This document shows, in pieces, positions 55,736-64,000 of a DNA stretch of 64,000 nt (the stretch's first letter is position 1; every line of letters starts with the position of its first letter). Source of the stretch: Biscogniauxia marginata (Eukaryota > Ascomycota > Sordariomycetes > Xylariales > Xylariaceae); contig MU404186.1 in assembly GCA_022695795.1 (NCBI GenBank), forward strand, positions 33,727 to 97,726. Reading direction: 5' to 3'. The translations under genes were made by a program, and so were the position numbers. The notes under the pieces were generated by a model, which made no database searches, was not told where the DNA came from, and saw only the letters and a program-made list of their open reading frames with translations.

Positions 55736-57496
55736 CTCGTGGGACCCGCAGCGCGCAACGCCGACCCGCCGTCTTTGTCCGTTGGATTCCGTTGAATGCT
55801 TCAGCGCAACCGGTTATAATGTGCTTAGGAAACCAGCGAAGATGCGACAAAGCAGATGTCGAGGGTGTCAACCACACATCTGACAGCGAAGCTAGTAAAT
55901 ATACCGGGAGCTCAACACTTGGTGATTGCGGCAGCGGTGTTTCGAATTGGGTAAAGAAAGAAAAATACAATGTAGGAGTTACAATGCGATAGGTTAATGG
56001 ACGTCCAGGGCGTCCGTCGCTAACAAAGAAGACAGAAAATGGCGTAGCTGAGCTTGATGGATCAAAGCCTCGCGGCAAAGGCGAAAAAGAGATGGGAGCA
56101 AGGAGGGTTTGAACGGTTACAACGCCCGTTGTGATGCCGGGCAAACATAAATTGAGGCGAGGCAGATGATAGATGATACTTAACAACCTTAGAGAAGGAA
56201 GCGTACCTCAAGTCACTAGTACTTTAGATACGTACCTATGTGCTATCTGCATGTGCATGTGGATGGATGGATATACCTGGTCGTGAAAGGGGAGAAAGGG
56301 ATCACTCTAAAAGAAAAAACTTGCTCATTTACGCCTGGGCCACCCCCGGTACCTACTGTGTAGATAAGAGTGACATCAGCTGCCCAGCCTTACCTAACCT
56401 TACCCCAGGGCTACATCATAAGAACCACATCTAAAAGGTATGTACCTAATCTACCTGGTACGTATCTACCTGGTATGTACATTATGTAGGTAGGCACTCA
56501 CCTACATGTCCCTACTTCCTCATTGTTAGTCCTCACACAGCTGCGTCGCACGTCGTGTTATGGGAACTCTCATTTATACAGAAGATCAGGTAGTAGTTAT
56601 TCAATTCATGTTATAAACACAGATCACCGTGGTGTAGGTAGTGTCAAATGGCGCGCTAAGGTGATGTTTCGATCAAAGACAAGACAGGCCAAGCTGAGGA
56701 ATGAGACCGACACTAGTGTAGCTAATGCTAACTTTTGGTAGCGTGTCCCAAACCTCATGCCACAATTTGCTCAAATAGCCTCAATCGGCAACCATTGTCA
56801 GCTGCTGACCACTTAGAGCGCCTCTCCCCATCGCCATGTTGGAAACCCTGGTCCCAGCCCGCCTAGTCGTGGTGGGGTTCTCGATTTAGAGGGCCCGGGA
56901 CGGTTGAAGAGTGGGGATTCATCGTCTCTTTTGTGGAACGTACCGCGGAAACATGAACTAGTGTACCTTAACCCCGCCACTTTAACAACTCTTCCACAGG
57001 TTTGCTTACCTATATTAACTTTCACCAGCCTTACATGCTAGGTACCCTAGATATACTTAGTGTGCTTCACCCCTGCGCATCTATGTGGGGTGCCTCCATT
57101 CCCGTCCCAATGTAGCTCCTTATCCTAGTCGTATCAAGTCCTTGGTAAGTATTTCATAGGTAGCTAGCTAGCTGCCAGTTCATTAAAGATATGTGTGCCT
57201 ATACATATTTCACATATGAGCATACCTCCTGCCTCTATGTGCCTAATATAAATATCACTACTGCTACTCTCTTCCCAACACCACTTGCGCTATAGTCTAC
57301 CTCGGTGAACACCTTCAAGAGATTTGTCTCAGTCACGGTCTTGGTCAGTCTCGGTCTCTCACCCTTCCCTATTATAGAATTTAAATCACCCACCACTTTC
57401 TACGCCACTTGGTATCCGTCTGCTTGTTGCACTTCAATTTTCTCTTTCCCTTCGGTCAAGCCTCTTTGCTCAACTATCGGCACCTATACACGCACA
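55736..57496. promoter_or_regulatory. Divergent intergenic region, reductase / Bim1-like gene
   Basis: This is 1.76 kb between two metal-related genes. It carries a dense TACCTA/GGTACC cluster at 56435-56510 and a TATA-like taatataaata near 57244. A minus-strand ORF at 56187-55716 overlaps the reductase promoter without recognisable content. I see no further gene. I did not identify a convincing iron- or copper-regulator site by eye. Confidence 0.55.
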
Positions 57497-58234
57497 ATGC
57501 CTTCTCTGATATCCGTCGCTACGGCAACACTCCTCTTTGCCAATAGTATCCATGCCCATTTCACCGTCCAGTATCCTCCCACCGTCGGACCTTTTCAAGA
57601 CGATACTGAAAGCTCTGCCCCATGTGGAGGCTACTCCCCTAACCTCGACGACCTCAACGCCACCGATTTCCACGTCGATGGGGACTCCATTGCCACCTAC
57701 TCGACACACCCGCAGACCAAGTGGCTATATCGCATTACCACTGACCCCACTGCGAGCGGAAACTGGTCCGGAGTCTGGGGTTTAATCGAGCAGACTGGCC
57801 CGGGCAACTACTGTACACCGGCTGTCACCATTCCCTCTGAATACGTTGGCCAAAAGGCGATCCTAAGCATTGTTGCTAGCGGTCTCGATGGCTATTTATA
57901 TCAGGCGAGTTTCCCAACTACAGAATACGCTCTACTTAGTCCTTGACGCTAACTTGATCCTTTTCTACCCATCCAGTGCTCCGCCGTCAACTTCGTCGAA
58001 GGGACGGGTAACGTCCCCGAAGCCTGTTTCAATAGATCTGGCGTGACAGGCACATTCACCACTGACGATGGGTTGACCGCCCAGCTTGACAGCAGCAGCA
58101 GCAGCAGTGCGACACCGAGCGCTACGGAGACCCCGAATGCCGGGGTCCAGATGGGAGCCAGCTCGGTCGAGGGACTCGGTGCTTTGATGACGGTAGGGAT
58201 AATGGTGGTAGTCGGCGCGTTTTTAGTGATATAG
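57497..58234 (+). CDS. Bim1-like (X325/LPMO-related) GPI-anchored copper-binding protein
   Basis: The exons are 57497-57904 and 57977-58234, giving 221 aa. The longer upstream ORF opens with a non-ATG codon, so I take MPSLISVATA. The signal peptide ends ...SIHA, so the mature chain starts with His21 (HFTVQYPPTVGPF). This is the free N-terminal histidine that forms the copper brace in Bim1/LPMO-like proteins. The APCGGYSP motif, GNYCTPAVTIP, LYQ-CSAVNFVEG and CFNRSG supply the conserved cysteines. Then come a Ser-rich linker and a hydrophobic C-terminus suited to a GPI anchor. Bim1 in Cryptococcus helps copper uptake, and family members do not cut polysaccharide. The intron needs a GC..AG splice (CAG/GCGAGT). 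Proximity to a metal reductase fits copper acquisition. Confidence 0.88.
57905..57976 (+). other. GC-AG intron
   Basis: The 72-nt intron of the Bim1-like gene starts GCGAGT after CAG and ends ATCCAG, with a GCTAAC branch site 25-30 nt before the end. No GT nearby gives a join that keeps the frame and the conserved Gln-Cys. GC donors occur in about one percent of fungal introns. Confidence 0.7.
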
Positions 58235-58917: not shown

Positions 58918-61900
58918 TTATCTCTTTCCATAACCCATACCAGCGTCATGTAGATGCATCTTACCCATATCGACAGCCAACCCGGGTACCACTGAGCCGC
59001 CGAAGCTCTCCTCCGGTCTGGTAGGTGAAGACCTCTTAGATCCTCTAGCATGCTTAACCCTCAATTCTCTACCGTCGTGGGCCTCGTGAGATGAATGCGG
59101 TTGCAAGAACTCTTCGTCGTCCCCTTCGACCCAGCTCTCCGGATCCGAAACTTCTATGATCTCCTCGATATTACCTCCGCCTGTCGAGATCTTGAAAAAG
59201 GCCTCGCCTCCTGGTAGTCGCACTTCCGTGGCCTCTAGAGTCTCTGCAATGTCACGAAGTAGGACATCCATAGGGCAGATATAAGCTACCTGTTTGCGCT
59301 CGCTCCAGGCGAGCACGTGTCCACAGACGCGGCCGTGGATGCTGTCAATCAACCACGCACCAGAATCGCCAGGGGCACCGAGAGGGGGACTATGCCGATT
59401 GCGTATCCTATTCATACTACTAGAAGTTGGATGCTTGTGCGAATTTGTCGCCGAAGGCAGACTGGTTACTTGATACGTGTGGCTTGGAGATGTTCGCCCA
59501 TAGATCTTGACTGAGGTGAGAGCGGGCATTATTTGGCCAGCCTGTGAAACAAGCCGCAGAGGTTAGTGTATATCGAGTTTTATTGAGGCATCATGATTAT
59601 GCTCACCTGTAGACCGCTTGTGCGCGCGTTACACTGTACTTGGAGGCCTGGTAAAGCATTTGCCGGAACTACCTCCTTCGGCTGTAGAGTTTTAAATGCG
59701 GTAGAAGAGGAAGAGCCTTTGGTGGCGGCTCGGAGGGTTGATATGAGGTTCTCCTGTGGCAGTCTATCGTCATGGAACCCGAATAACGCCCAATCGATCT
59801 CATGAATCAGCCCATCCTCACTTCTTCTCCGTATGCCAGATGATGCGTAGACTTCGCCTAGGCTGTACGAGTCGAGATGATCCTGGACAATAATTAGCAT
59901 GATGAAGCCAACATCCCAAACCAGAATCTTACTACTCAGGTTTTCTTGACCTCGGGGGACAGGTTTGACTTACTTCGTCCTTAGTTTCCTCTGAAGGATA
60001 AAAACCTTCTTCAACATCGTCAAGCGCAGGCTGCGTGACCACATACCCTATAAACATCCATTAGCAGTGAACCTCCAGTAAGACTGAATAGCGACTTCTC
60101 CACCACCACTTTCTTCCTTTTTCCTTTTTCCTTCTTCTTTTATCGAGCAATTTTCTTCTGCGATATATACCACCCACAGTGCCAACGTTACAATATTTGA
60201 AGTTTTTCAAATGGGATAAGGACTTTGAACTATCAGAAGACCCCTACGTACCGTCACCACAGCCAGGCTCTACGCCAGGGATGTCGCCAGGTTCGGTGAA
60301 TTCTTCATCCTCTTCATCATCCTCTTCATCGTCACTTGTGATATCTGTCACCGAGTATTCCGATTCACTGTCTGAGAATTCACACGTAAACTCATCGGCG
60401 CTGCTCTCCTCCGATGAATCACCTTCGTGAAGGGATACCATACCATATCCTAGCGCACTATTATGAAGTGCAGCTGCACCAGCCCTCTTAGCCACTTTTC
60501 CATACTCGGCCGGTTCATCTAACGGTAATGCTGGCCGGTCTGGATCGTCCAACATATGATGGACTGTCATACCATATGGCTTATCATCAACGATAATGAG
60601 GCCCCCAAAGCTCACCGGTGGGAGATGCTTGTCGCCAATCCATGCTCCAATACTAGCCCCATTCTGTGGCCTTTCTTGGTAAGAAGGATTAGCGGCAGCA
60701 TATCGCGCCTCGTCCTCACTATCATCCTGATTGCCAGTTATCTTGGACCTCTCATCCTTTGCCATACTCCGGGTTGGACCTTTCCTAGATCGCATGACAG
60801 ATCCGTGGCATACTTTGAGAGAAAATCCTGTTGTCCCATCAAATAGCACTCCCAGTTTCTTCTTTAGGATTGCCCGGACCTTATTGACGGATGTGCAAAC
60901 GACGAGTACAGTCGGAGTGGTGCTTTGGGGAGATTCGCCAATCGACTCAAGTGAGATCTCAACCGACTCGGGGTTCTTTCGGTAGAAATGCCGCAGGGCC
61001 AGGTTGATTTGCGGCATCACCATATTGTTCCATTGCTCGAGGATTTCGGTCGGCAGTGGTATTTGAGGATATAATCGTAATTTTAGCGATGCGCCCTGTG
61101 AAGGTTCGGTTTTCGCTTTCGCAGTTTTACCTTGTGATGTGTTAGCATTTAAGCAAGCAGAGAAGGTGTCTAGAATGGGTTACCCTCGGGTCGTATCCTG
61201 ATGTTTCTGTCATCGTGCGAGAGTAGTTCCTGTCCTGTCATTTGTTTCGTATCATATTCATGTGTGGTCGGCAGCTTCACGGATGAACCAGGTAGAGATG
61301 CCACAGATGTGTCTGCCTTCTCCCTTGAAGATGGCTTGGCATATTCATCACCTAGTCGCTCGTCTAGACCACTAACGCCATCGAGAATACAGCACGCTTC
61401 CAGATAACGACTAGCCCTAATCTGCACTTGGCTAATGATCTCTTCAGTATTATCTGGATACGCAAGTTCGCGATCAACGGCATTCCAGCATGCCTGCACC
61501 GCTCTCATATACGGAGTCCCACATCTTATAGCGAGTTGTTCAAGGACGGATTCAGAAATACTTGGAGATCCTTGTCCAGGGGTGAGGTTCTCAAGCGTAG
61601 TCCATAGACCTATAGAGACGAGGATCATAGCCAATGAGTACAGGTCTAGCGTTTTAGTATCACCCCTAGAAGCCAAAGGCGATTGACTCGTGGTTCGGGG
61701 GTCGAGCGGGTGTCGATGAAGCAGGAACGCCGAGGATGGTTGATATGGCGTGGAAGGTTCCGGGAAGACATCAAAAGATGAAATCAATGGCCTTCGGACG
61801 TCCACCTCGTCAACCGACATCCCAGGTTCGTTCCCAACAGGACTACAGAACGAGATGGTAGCACCATGGATATTTCCGTGAGTAATCCCTCGGGAGTGCA

Positions 61901-62990
61901 TATCGAAAACCGTATTTGCTAAGTTGTAGGCAAGCCGAAACTTAGCCTCTAGTGTTGGCTCAAAGTCTGGGCGGTTAAGTAACTCGGCCAGGGTGCAAAG
62001 GTTGTCGAGGGGGTTCTGGGTCAGGTTTTCGAACGTAACAGGGTTGAATGTTGGAGGGAATTGATAGATCAGCGCCAACCTTGAGTTTTCTATATCCTCG
62101 TAGTATCCTAACAGGAGGGGGAGACCTATCCATGTGCCCGGGGCTCTATAAGACTCTGTCTGGAGCCCAGCACTTAGCTTCTCAAAACGAGACATATCAG
62201 GCATGATGCCAGTCATGGAATAGATTGGATCGAATTTCGCATACTCTACCAAGAGCGGAGACCAAGGCTGTCGTCCTGGCCCGCGGGTTAGCTCTGAGTA
62301 CGCCTGCTTGTTCATGAAGAATATGTCCTGAGGTCGGTTTTGAGAGGTATCTGTCTCTGAAAGCGGCATCGCCTGCATCGACCTAAGGCTAGTGAGGGTC
62401 CGAGGATCAATTTGCTGCGGTGTTTGTATCCTTGTAGAGCCGTAAGGCCGAAGATCTTCCATGGACGTGTTAGACTTATCCAGTTTAGATGTTCTAGGCG
62501 ATAGTGTTGCTGAGGAACGTGTCCGAGAAAGATCGCAAAGGGTATCGATCGAAGCAGTCAAATCTTTAACCAAGTCTTCGAATCTCCCCTTATCCCAGAC
62601 TATCAGCGGAGTCTTCCGATCGCCCGAGGCCTTCTCTGATGCTTTTTCAGCCCCAGTCAGCCGTTTTGAGGCAAGCCAGAGAGGTTCAGCCTCGGCAAGG
62701 ATGTCCTTTATGGTAGCCATTATGCTGCCGACAAGATCGCTCAAGCCGGCCTTGGAAAGAGACTCATCAATCTCGGCAGCTTGGTTCGGATCAGACCACT
62801 CCAGGCCCCAGCTAACAAGTCTATCCTTCTGGATCCTTAGTTTGCGATGTAATGCCTTGATTTCGGGGTCGTCGGCAGCCTGGACAGGCTCCTGGACAAA
62901 GTCGGAGGACTTTTTGGTGTCATTGTAGAGTCTGCTCAGTCGCCGCTGAAAAGGCCGTTGGAAGCCGCCTTGGGGGAGAAACGACTCCAT
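58918..62990 (-). CDS. HeLo-like / pseudokinase / chymotrypsin-fold serine protease fusion protein
   Basis: Five exons: 62990-61184, 61130-60252, 60047-59974, 59882-59607 and 59541-58918, giving 1219 aa. Intron 1 (61131-61183, 53 nt: GTAACC donor, TGCTAAC branch, ACAAG acceptor) removes the TAG that would otherwise split this into two genes. Residues 40-160 resemble the helical HeLo/HET-S N-terminal domain ([15 protein letters not shown], then [20 protein letters not shown]) but lack its hydrophobic first helix. Residues 220-540 have a protein-kinase fold with dead motifs: HRDxKxxN is HGNIHGATI (370s) and DFG is SSFD (404-407). Residues 740-1110 form a chymotrypsin-like protease with H794 (MTVHHML), D950 (HEIDWALF) and S1072 (GDSGAWL). 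An acidic tract (839-886) lies between H and D. It is probably a cytosolic regulated protease in cell death or defence, which is inference. Confidence 0.8.
61131..61183 (-). other. Key intron joining the pseudokinase and protease halves
   Basis: If unspliced, the upstream half stops at 61170 with ...PEGNPF. Spliced, Gly603 is completed across the junction and the frame runs on as [19 protein letters not shown] into the protease half with no stop. Donor, branch point and acceptor spacing are ordinary for this genome. Confidence 0.75.
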
Positions 62991-63730
62991 GACGGATGGT
63001 GGCCGGGGCACTTTGTACTTTGAACGAGAGTAAAGGGAACTCCACGTAGAGATGTGTATTGAAACTGAGAGGCTAGAGGAGGTTTCCAGTAGGGTTGCCG
63101 TGAGAGGTTGGGTCGAATCAGCTCAACTAGTTGTCCTCTTATCTTGACATGATGATGATGATGATGAGATACTGGTAGAAGTTGAATCACGAACGGAAGG
63201 CTGCAAGAGGTGAAGACAGTATTGATGTTAATGAATATATTTCAGCCGGTTGTCATTCGGGATTCACCCCTGCTATCCAAGTCTGAAAGAGAAACGAGTC
63301 AAAATTTAGCTTATAAGAATCCCTCCTCCCAAACATACGAAGTCAGAGATGGGGTGGTGGGCAGTATTACCGCTGCCTTGAGGCTAGGGATAGACGGATG
63401 AAGAAATCTCGGTGCCTATGAGCGGGCCCATTAAGCTTAGGTTAGACGAAATGTGCTCCTAGTTTGAAACTGTCTCTGCTGTGTAGCAACACCAGATTGA
63501 ACTGATCAATCGTTTGTCGTCGGTTGAAGGAAATCCTGCTGCCTAATCGTGGCCAACCACGAGGCTTGAACATTTTCTATCCAGTCAGGGCCACCCATTT
63601 CGTGCACGAGCCACCAAAGAAAGCGGCGAATGCCGTTGCCAGCTAGCTACGAAATATTGGATCCGTTGTTTTAATTGGATGACGGGGCCTGCTAGCGAGA
63701 GACAGCTGAGTGTCAACTGTCATTATAGCT
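62991..63730. other. Upstream flank of the fusion gene
   Basis: This is the promoter and leader region of the multidomain gene. It includes a (TGA)6 microsatellite at about 63149-63168. I see no upstream exon with the hydrophobic helix expected at the start of a complete HeLo domain, and no other gene. Confidence 0.55.
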
Positions 63731-63769
63731 CTCCCTAGTATAACAATGCGTTATTAATGGCCTTTTTAA

Positions 63770-64000
63770 GTTGATAATTAACAATGTAAAGAAATTTTTA
63801 GTTATATAAAACAATTAAATATATTTAATATTATAAATATAACTTTAAAAAGATATATATTAAAAATAATAATATATTATAACGTATTATATAAATAAAT
63901 AAACGAAATAAACTCGTAAATAAAATTTTATAATTATTACACTTTTAATTATTAAAAATTATTTATATTATATTGAAATTAATTATTATTATTATTATTT
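63770..64000 (-). repeat. AT-rich RIP repeat, inverted copy of the left-hand family
   Basis: Composition drops to nearly pure A/T at about 63770 and continues off the window. The reverse complement of 63880-64000 matches 12040-12163 almost base for base (ttaaaagtgtaataattata is identical), with transition differences. The same repeat family therefore bounds the gene-bearing segment on both sides, in opposite orientation. Confidence 0.8.

Follow-up and report, generated by a model that had tools for sequence, protein, structure and literature searches.

What would a fungus do with a single gene that joins a HeLo-like region, a degenerate kinase and a serine protease? The question is raised by a five-exon gene on the minus strand of a 64,000-nucleotide stretch of Biscogniauxia marginata DNA (contig MU404186.1, positions 33,727 to 97,726; hereafter the window), in which a first-pass annotation, made from the letters alone, saw a self-contained chain of sensor, switch and protease for which it was aware of no functional description. 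Such a description does exist, that of SltB of Aspergillus nidulans (PMC4557415, 2015, and follow-ups), in the available text of which HeLo is not named. We conclude with high confidence that the gene is orthologous to sltB, whose product is the signalling protease in a cation/alkali stress pathway specific to Pezizomycotina; a seemingly undescribed architecture thus becomes a gene of a known pathway. The observation made in that annotation is confirmed and its interpretation partly supported.

An independent rebuild of the gene reproduced the five exons and 1219 stop-free codons reported earlier, with a product of 1219 residues ending at 58918 that is letter for letter the deposited B. marginata hypothetical protein F5X99DRAFT_71854 (P0001). 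The four introns measure 53, 204, 91 and 65 nt, all four run GT...AG, and each carries, 16-26 nt upstream of its 3' end, a branch-point-like [AG]CT[AG]A[CT] motif. The motifs lie at the positions claimed for them, HGN at 371-373, SSFD at 404-407, TVHH at 791-794 (H794), D950, and GDSG at 1070-1073 (S1072), and the reading of three parts in one gene, with a degenerate kinase and a complete triad, is supported.

SltB of A. nidulans (AN6132) is a protein of 1272 residues comprising a pseudokinase which lacks the VAIK, HRD and DFG motifs, a conserved region, a linker that is not conserved, and a serine protease (PMC4557415; published work is cited throughout from the available parts of its text). 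The architecture and length of the B. marginata protein agree with this account, its N-terminal pseudokinase likewise lacks the three motifs, and the range of its family matches the Pezizomycotina distribution published for SltB. As the A. nidulans sequence was absent among the homologs listed, the published residue numbers were used as a fingerprint, read through the homolog of Paecilomyces variotii (P0337; Eurotiales, 1282 residues). In P0337, SltB residues Y478, N544, Y568 and E743 all occur at an offset of +8, and F1126, S1142 and G1156 all occur at +4. Among 20000 shuffles, scored for two three-residue blocks without E743 at offsets of 0-12 (a range chosen after the alignment had been viewed), both blocks were matched in none and one block in 58. 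When aligned at full length, P0337 and the 1219-residue protein share 46% identity over residues 15-161, 27% over the pseudokinase, 32% over the conserved region and 45% over the protease, and SltB Y568, E743, D1037, S1142 and G1156 correspond to the identical residues Y494, E657, D950, S1072 and G1086.

Several points weigh against this identification. The orthology rests on published residue numbers together with the P. variotii homolog, and three fingerprint residues differ in the 1219-residue protein (Y478 is L402, N544 is S475 and F1126 is P1031). No SltA came to light in the genome: of the 43 finger matches from a search for C2H2 fingers, 30 were retrieved as loci, and none was nameable as SltA. 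The published SltA site, AGGCA, of which A. nidulans sltB has five within 1.15 kb upstream (PMC4557415), occurs three times in the 1010 nt upstream of the gene against 1.3 expected, which is no commoner than chance (the fraction of shuffles reaching it was 0.11-0.14). A weak relative of the protease occurs elsewhere in the genome. Finally, the published catalytic His, given as His-939 in the Results and His-925 in the Discussion and legend (PMC4557415), has at neither number a counterpart at the conserved HH.

This last discrepancy is taken to be a misassignment, although it could be a real difference. No His of P0337 lies within offsets -2 to +13 of H925, and those matching H939 (943 and 952) sit in a non-conserved acidic loop, whereas the conserved HH stands at 876/877, which at the flanking offset of +8/+9 corresponds to A. 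nidulans 868/869. The conserved Asp stands at +9 from D1037, one of the three residues (D1037, D1046 and D1049) between which the catalytic Asp was left open (PMC4557415). Because the P0337 offsets place the conserved residues there, we predict the catalytic His of A. nidulans SltB at about H869 (+/-1) and the Asp at D1037. The likeness to SltB takes in the order of domains, the length, the residue fingerprint (through P. variotii), the taxonomic range and the catalytic Ser; the predicted catalytic His is not the published one, and the predicted Asp is among the three published candidates. For the SltB pathway the predictions that can be checked are an N-terminal HeLo domain, these two residues and, lying between the two, an acidic insertion that is conserved.

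Of 7991 candidates scored in a similarity search with the 1219-residue protein, 670 were homologs at E<=0.001, which is far beyond chance. Among the best 120 of these homologs, 118 are full-length single proteins of 1148-1331 residues. A collection of 343 proteins (query included) was pooled from three similarity searches and is not unbiased, because every member was found by its similarity to the query; within it, the loose pattern [VAI]HH[MLI] is found in 343, HExDW in 342 and GDSG[AG]W in 341. From their organism names we take the members to be Sordariomycetes, Leotiomycetes, Dothideomycetes, lichen lineages and Eurotiales, and several of their database entries are named 'het-s domain protein'. 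Profiles and alignments were drawn from samples of these proteins: A1 (79 of 240), A2 (40 of those 79), A3 (the first exon and 93 of 343) and A4 (45 of 120 shorter models), with 16 of the 343 used for residue mapping. Over 120 homologs, the share of positions conserved at 90% or above is 65% in the HeLo region (46-155), 57% in the conserved region (SltB-CR), 50% in the pseudokinase and 41% in the protease with its insertion, which places the HeLo region among the most conserved parts of the family. One homolog, P0287, is filed under a 'Rickettsiales bacterium' metagenome-assembled genome, and with 45% identity over 94% of the fungal protein it almost certainly comes from fungal DNA that was binned as bacterial.

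The protease region of the query has no Pfam match; sequence motifs, their conservation and the predicted fold are the grounds for calling it a protease. In chymotrypsin, TAAH, DIAL and GDSG are the counterparts of the HH, HExDW and GDSG[AG]W motifs, and a complete triad of H794, D950 and S1072 is predicted from the fold match and the order of the motifs. The trypsin-like profile search suggested earlier gave no match, PF00089 being unmatched in the query and, at E<=1, in 40 family members; a search of the genome with this profile gave 0 matches, so the profile does not detect this protease. NCBIfam gave no match for P0001 or P0337. The fold is predicted to be that of rice NAL1, N-terminal subdomain included, and SltB-CR is predicted to belong to the unit matching NAL1. 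Foldseek itself placed the kinase KSR1 first and NAL1 third, and NAL1 leads only after VIA re-alignment of the predicted fold. NAL1 was also not among the three PDB matches at E<=10 for the C-terminal profile A4, all three apparently spurious, nor among the best 60 of 313 matches for profile A3, and the open-access library searched contained no paper linking SltB, the protease and NAL1. Rice NAL1 is a trypsin-like protease which, with maize ZmNAL1a, degrades TOPLESS-type corepressors (PMC12915138). It differs from the SltB protein in its low identity (16%), in its solved chains of about 350-410 residues without a HeLo or kinase part, and in having no counterpart to the acidic insertion of about 100 residues on the SltB side. 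Ssy5 of Saccharomyces cerevisiae (peptidase family S64) is alike in being an endoprotease of chymotrypsin type whose cut activates a transcription factor. That comparison was made by Mellado et al., with an overall similarity published as very low and a weak MEROPS link to S64 (e-value 9e-2); at E<=1, 40 members of the SltB family matched 10 Pfam families, and PF08192 (Ssy5, S64) was none of them.

Between the catalytic His and Asp lies an acidic stretch, which in the query measures 103 residues between the two search motifs and has a net charge of -28. From the HH motif to a conserved QPA-DD motif its median length is 102 residues (79-171) in the 305 of 343 proteins with both search patterns, the other 38 having been dropped. 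In these 305 proteins it has a median of 31% Asp+Glu, compared with 15% for the whole protein, and a median net charge of -28; in 274 the most acidic 40-residue segment of the protein lies within it, and in 31 elsewhere. As identity to P0337 is 13% here, the composition is kept and the sequence is not. The insertion is a candidate for a regulatory or cation-sensing loop.

The pseudokinase carries HGN in place of HRD and S-F-D-V-F in place of DFG, with E249 (placed by eye) where the beta3 Lys would be expected. Of the profile evidence that had been called for, the kinase assignment stood by the family profile, which matched the kinase CLK1 (E=1.8e-5), and by the predicted fold, which matched kinases; it did not stand in Pfam, which gave DUF7580 below threshold (16.1 vs 27 bits), and PDB sequence matches to kinases with the A1 profile were weak (best E 0.16). 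Kinase rows dominated the fold-search lists, and the fold evidence accordingly concerns the kinase region and not the HeLo bundle by itself. Elsewhere in the genome, a reading frame on contig C15 (L005, G000:C15:473173-476835; locus 631-2253, + strand) joins a caspase-like segment, VIFLDCCYAG, recognised by eye and without a Pfam match, to an SltB-like pseudokinase, and is perhaps a further protease-pseudokinase fusion with an unrelated protease.

The N-terminal region matched PF14479 (HeLo) at 29.6 bits against a cut-off of 23.2, as had been foreseen, and AlphaFold2 (AF2) predicts five helices (15-32, 42-65, 68-81, 84-113 and 134-161). The same profile was matched at E<=1 in 38 of 40 family members, and in the query HeLo and DUF7580 were the only Pfam matches at that level, a scan which short motifs such as a C-terminal amyloid signalling motif may escape. 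HeLo domains depend on an extreme N-terminal helix (2025 review, PMC12881547). No hydrophobic helix of this kind was found in the first 45 residues, where 19-residue hydropathy peaks at -0.75. The N-terminal motif is present in 198 of 343 homologs; in these, measured from the protein start to ten residues past that motif, the median was -0.32 and the maximum 0.68, and none reached 1.6. Counted more crudely, over residues 1-45 of 118 homologs with their deposited starts, the peak was 1.25 vs 0.68, which indicates that some deposited starts differ. By comparison, C173, the one further protein of the genome in which Pfam HeLo was found (first exon, by eye), gave 1.79, a true HeLo control of n=1, and C100, a pseudokinase-related protein that Pfam HeLo did not match, gave 1.74. 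The HeLo domain is apparently without its membrane-attacking part and probably serves assembly or protein contacts instead of membrane killing. The open-access library searched yielded no paper linking SltB and HeLo, the four papers returned being unrelated by their titles; the main text of PMC4557415, so far as available, mentions neither HeLo, HET-s, prion nor MLKL, and the available text of PMC11011638 does not mention HeLo; the HeLo annotation of the family is already in databases, and its link to SltB is apparently new. The C173 protein (L036/L043; G000:C173:22650-24470, - strand) resembles the query in having HeLo and a DUF7580 pseudokinase (75.3 and 42.1 bits), and differs in its hydrophobic first exon and in that no protease was seen; its likeness to A. 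nidulans PskA is one of analogy.

These results bear on the possibility that the gene is a cell-death or incompatibility effector, with HeLo as membrane killer, the pseudokinase as switch and the protease as activator. The HeLo match above the Pfam cut-off would suit such a role, as would the het-s naming of many family entries and the order of helical bundle then pseudokinase, which recalls MLKL; a 2025 review also notes fusions of HELL domains with a kinase or pseudokinase (PMC12881547). However, unlike these effectors the protein has no hydrophobic N-terminal helix, carries a protease and has a described role in stress signalling. The HeLo region is strongly conserved, whereas het genes are polymorphic, and the sltB null mutant of A. 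nidulans is viable, sensitive to monovalent and divalent cations and to alkali, and has enlarged vacuoles (PMC4557415). The killer helical domain supposed in the first-pass annotation is therefore not upheld, and nor is its parallel with HET-Q1/HET-Q2, since the described substrates of SltB are SltB itself and a transcription factor and not a pore former (PMC11011638, PMC5541321). On hydropathy, conservation and published phenotype we rejected the effector role, which is very improbable. That two adjacent genes (a HeLo-pseudokinase and a protease) were fused by a wrong intron call at 61131-61183 is scarcely credible and was rejected: the first donor, GTAACC, is off the usual GTRAGT, and C-terminal-half-only deposits exist in Apiospora saccharicola (598 residues, P0122) and Rhynchosporium agropyri (619 residues, P0206), but the full-length single-protein homologs include other Apiospora species, 112 of 120 shorter models listed look like exon-wise gene calls, and A. 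nidulans SltB is one protein with a cDNA-checked intron (PMC4557415).

As an SltB ortholog, the gene can be placed in a described sequence of events. SltB auto-proteolyses and then processes SltA from 78 to 32 kDa (PMC11011638, PMC5541321), and its pseudokinase, released by autoproteolysis, has been described as 'possibly acting as a prodomain' (PMC11011638), in agreement with the earlier suggestion that the N-terminal half restrains the protease. In A. nidulans the 32 kDa form of SltA, a zinc-finger factor, is needed for sltB and sltA expression and regulates ion-homeostasis genes (PMC11011638, PMC5541321, PMC4557415). Within Pezizomycotina SltA is found alongside SltB, certain vps defects are suppressed by slt mutations (PMC4557415), and an SltB homolog with the same inferred mode of action was reported in Colletotrichum (PMC5193415). 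The published accounts, in their available text, leave open how cation stress triggers SltB. We suggest that HeLo and pseudokinase would together form a non-catalytic prodomain, which receives the stress signal and restrains the NAL1-like protease, and that the protease would be released when the protein cuts itself, perhaps within the linker of low conservation at about residues 541-615. A bolder version, which we consider unlikely, is that SltB is an ancient necroptosis-like HeLo-pseudokinase switch which lost its killing helix, was joined to a NAL1-type protease and now acts as the sensor of a survival pathway, with the acidic insertion as cation sensor and the freed HeLo-pseudokinase fragment acting in membrane trafficking; the latter role would explain the vps suppression by slt mutations. 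If HeLo-pseudokinase units also serve as stress-sensing prodomains, the fungal necroptosis-like repertoire would be broader than cell-death reviews suggest. The coordinates of all features are collected in Table 1.

Table 1. Features of the putative sltB gene of B. marginata, in window positions.
Feature	Position	Strand	Basis and remarks
Exon 1	61184..62990	-	Residues 1-602: HeLo domain, pseudokinase, linker start; identical to deposited protein
Exon 2	60252..61130	-	SltB-CR, first half of protease, acidic insertion; rebuilt gene model
Exon 3	59974..60047	-	25-residue exact match of exon 3 piece in genome search
Exon 4	59607..59882	-	Holds catalytic Asp; rebuilt gene model
Exon 5	58918..59541	-	Holds catalytic Ser, runs to stop codon; rebuilt gene model
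HeLo domain, residues 15-161	62508..62948	-	PF14479 (29.6 bits, cut-off 23.2); AF2; hydropathy
Pseudokinase, residues 185-540	61371..62438	-	Fold search, profile match, motif counts
SltB-CR, residues 617-720	60778..61089	-	Conservation (120 homologs); VIA range from model residue 632 of P0005
Chymotrypsin-fold serine protease core (predicted), residues 755-1125	59203..60675	-	Three introns inside; alignment, fold
Predicted catalytic His, H794 codon (LPPVSFGG...GMTVHHM)	60556..60558	-	240/240 aligned rows
Acidic insertion, residues 800-884	60286..60540	-	Between catalytic His and Asp
Predicted catalytic Asp, D950 codon (HEIDWALF)	59793..59795	-	239/240 aligned rows, one gap
Predicted catalytic Ser, S1072 codon (GDSGAW)	59362..59364	-	239/240 aligned rows, one gap
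AGGCA	63374..63378	-	SltA site as published; lies 388 nt before the ATG; others at 63413-63417 and 63540-63544

The whole protease was found at one place in the genome, this locus, together with one weak match on contig C66 (L049; G000:C66:115059-115448, + strand; frames at locus 487 and 1414), where an SltB-like protease half (E=0.01, 30% identity over 136 residues) has reading frames with MDWALI, GRTSGxQxG and GVPGDSGA. Neither frame had a Pfam match, and hence no HeLo or kinase part was recognised in them. From this weak match a stand-alone protease relative is possible, a candidate which contrasts with the published account, in whose available text no gene resembling the C-terminal part of SltB alone was found (PMC4557415).

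At the end of the contig, upstream of the promoter region of the gene, window positions 63740-64000 are very AT-rich and of low complexity. On its other side, a neighbouring gene at 57296-58234 (+ strand) encodes a small, seemingly secreted protein whose C-terminal tail is hydrophobic and which, from the look of its sequence, is possibly GPI-anchored and BIM1-like.

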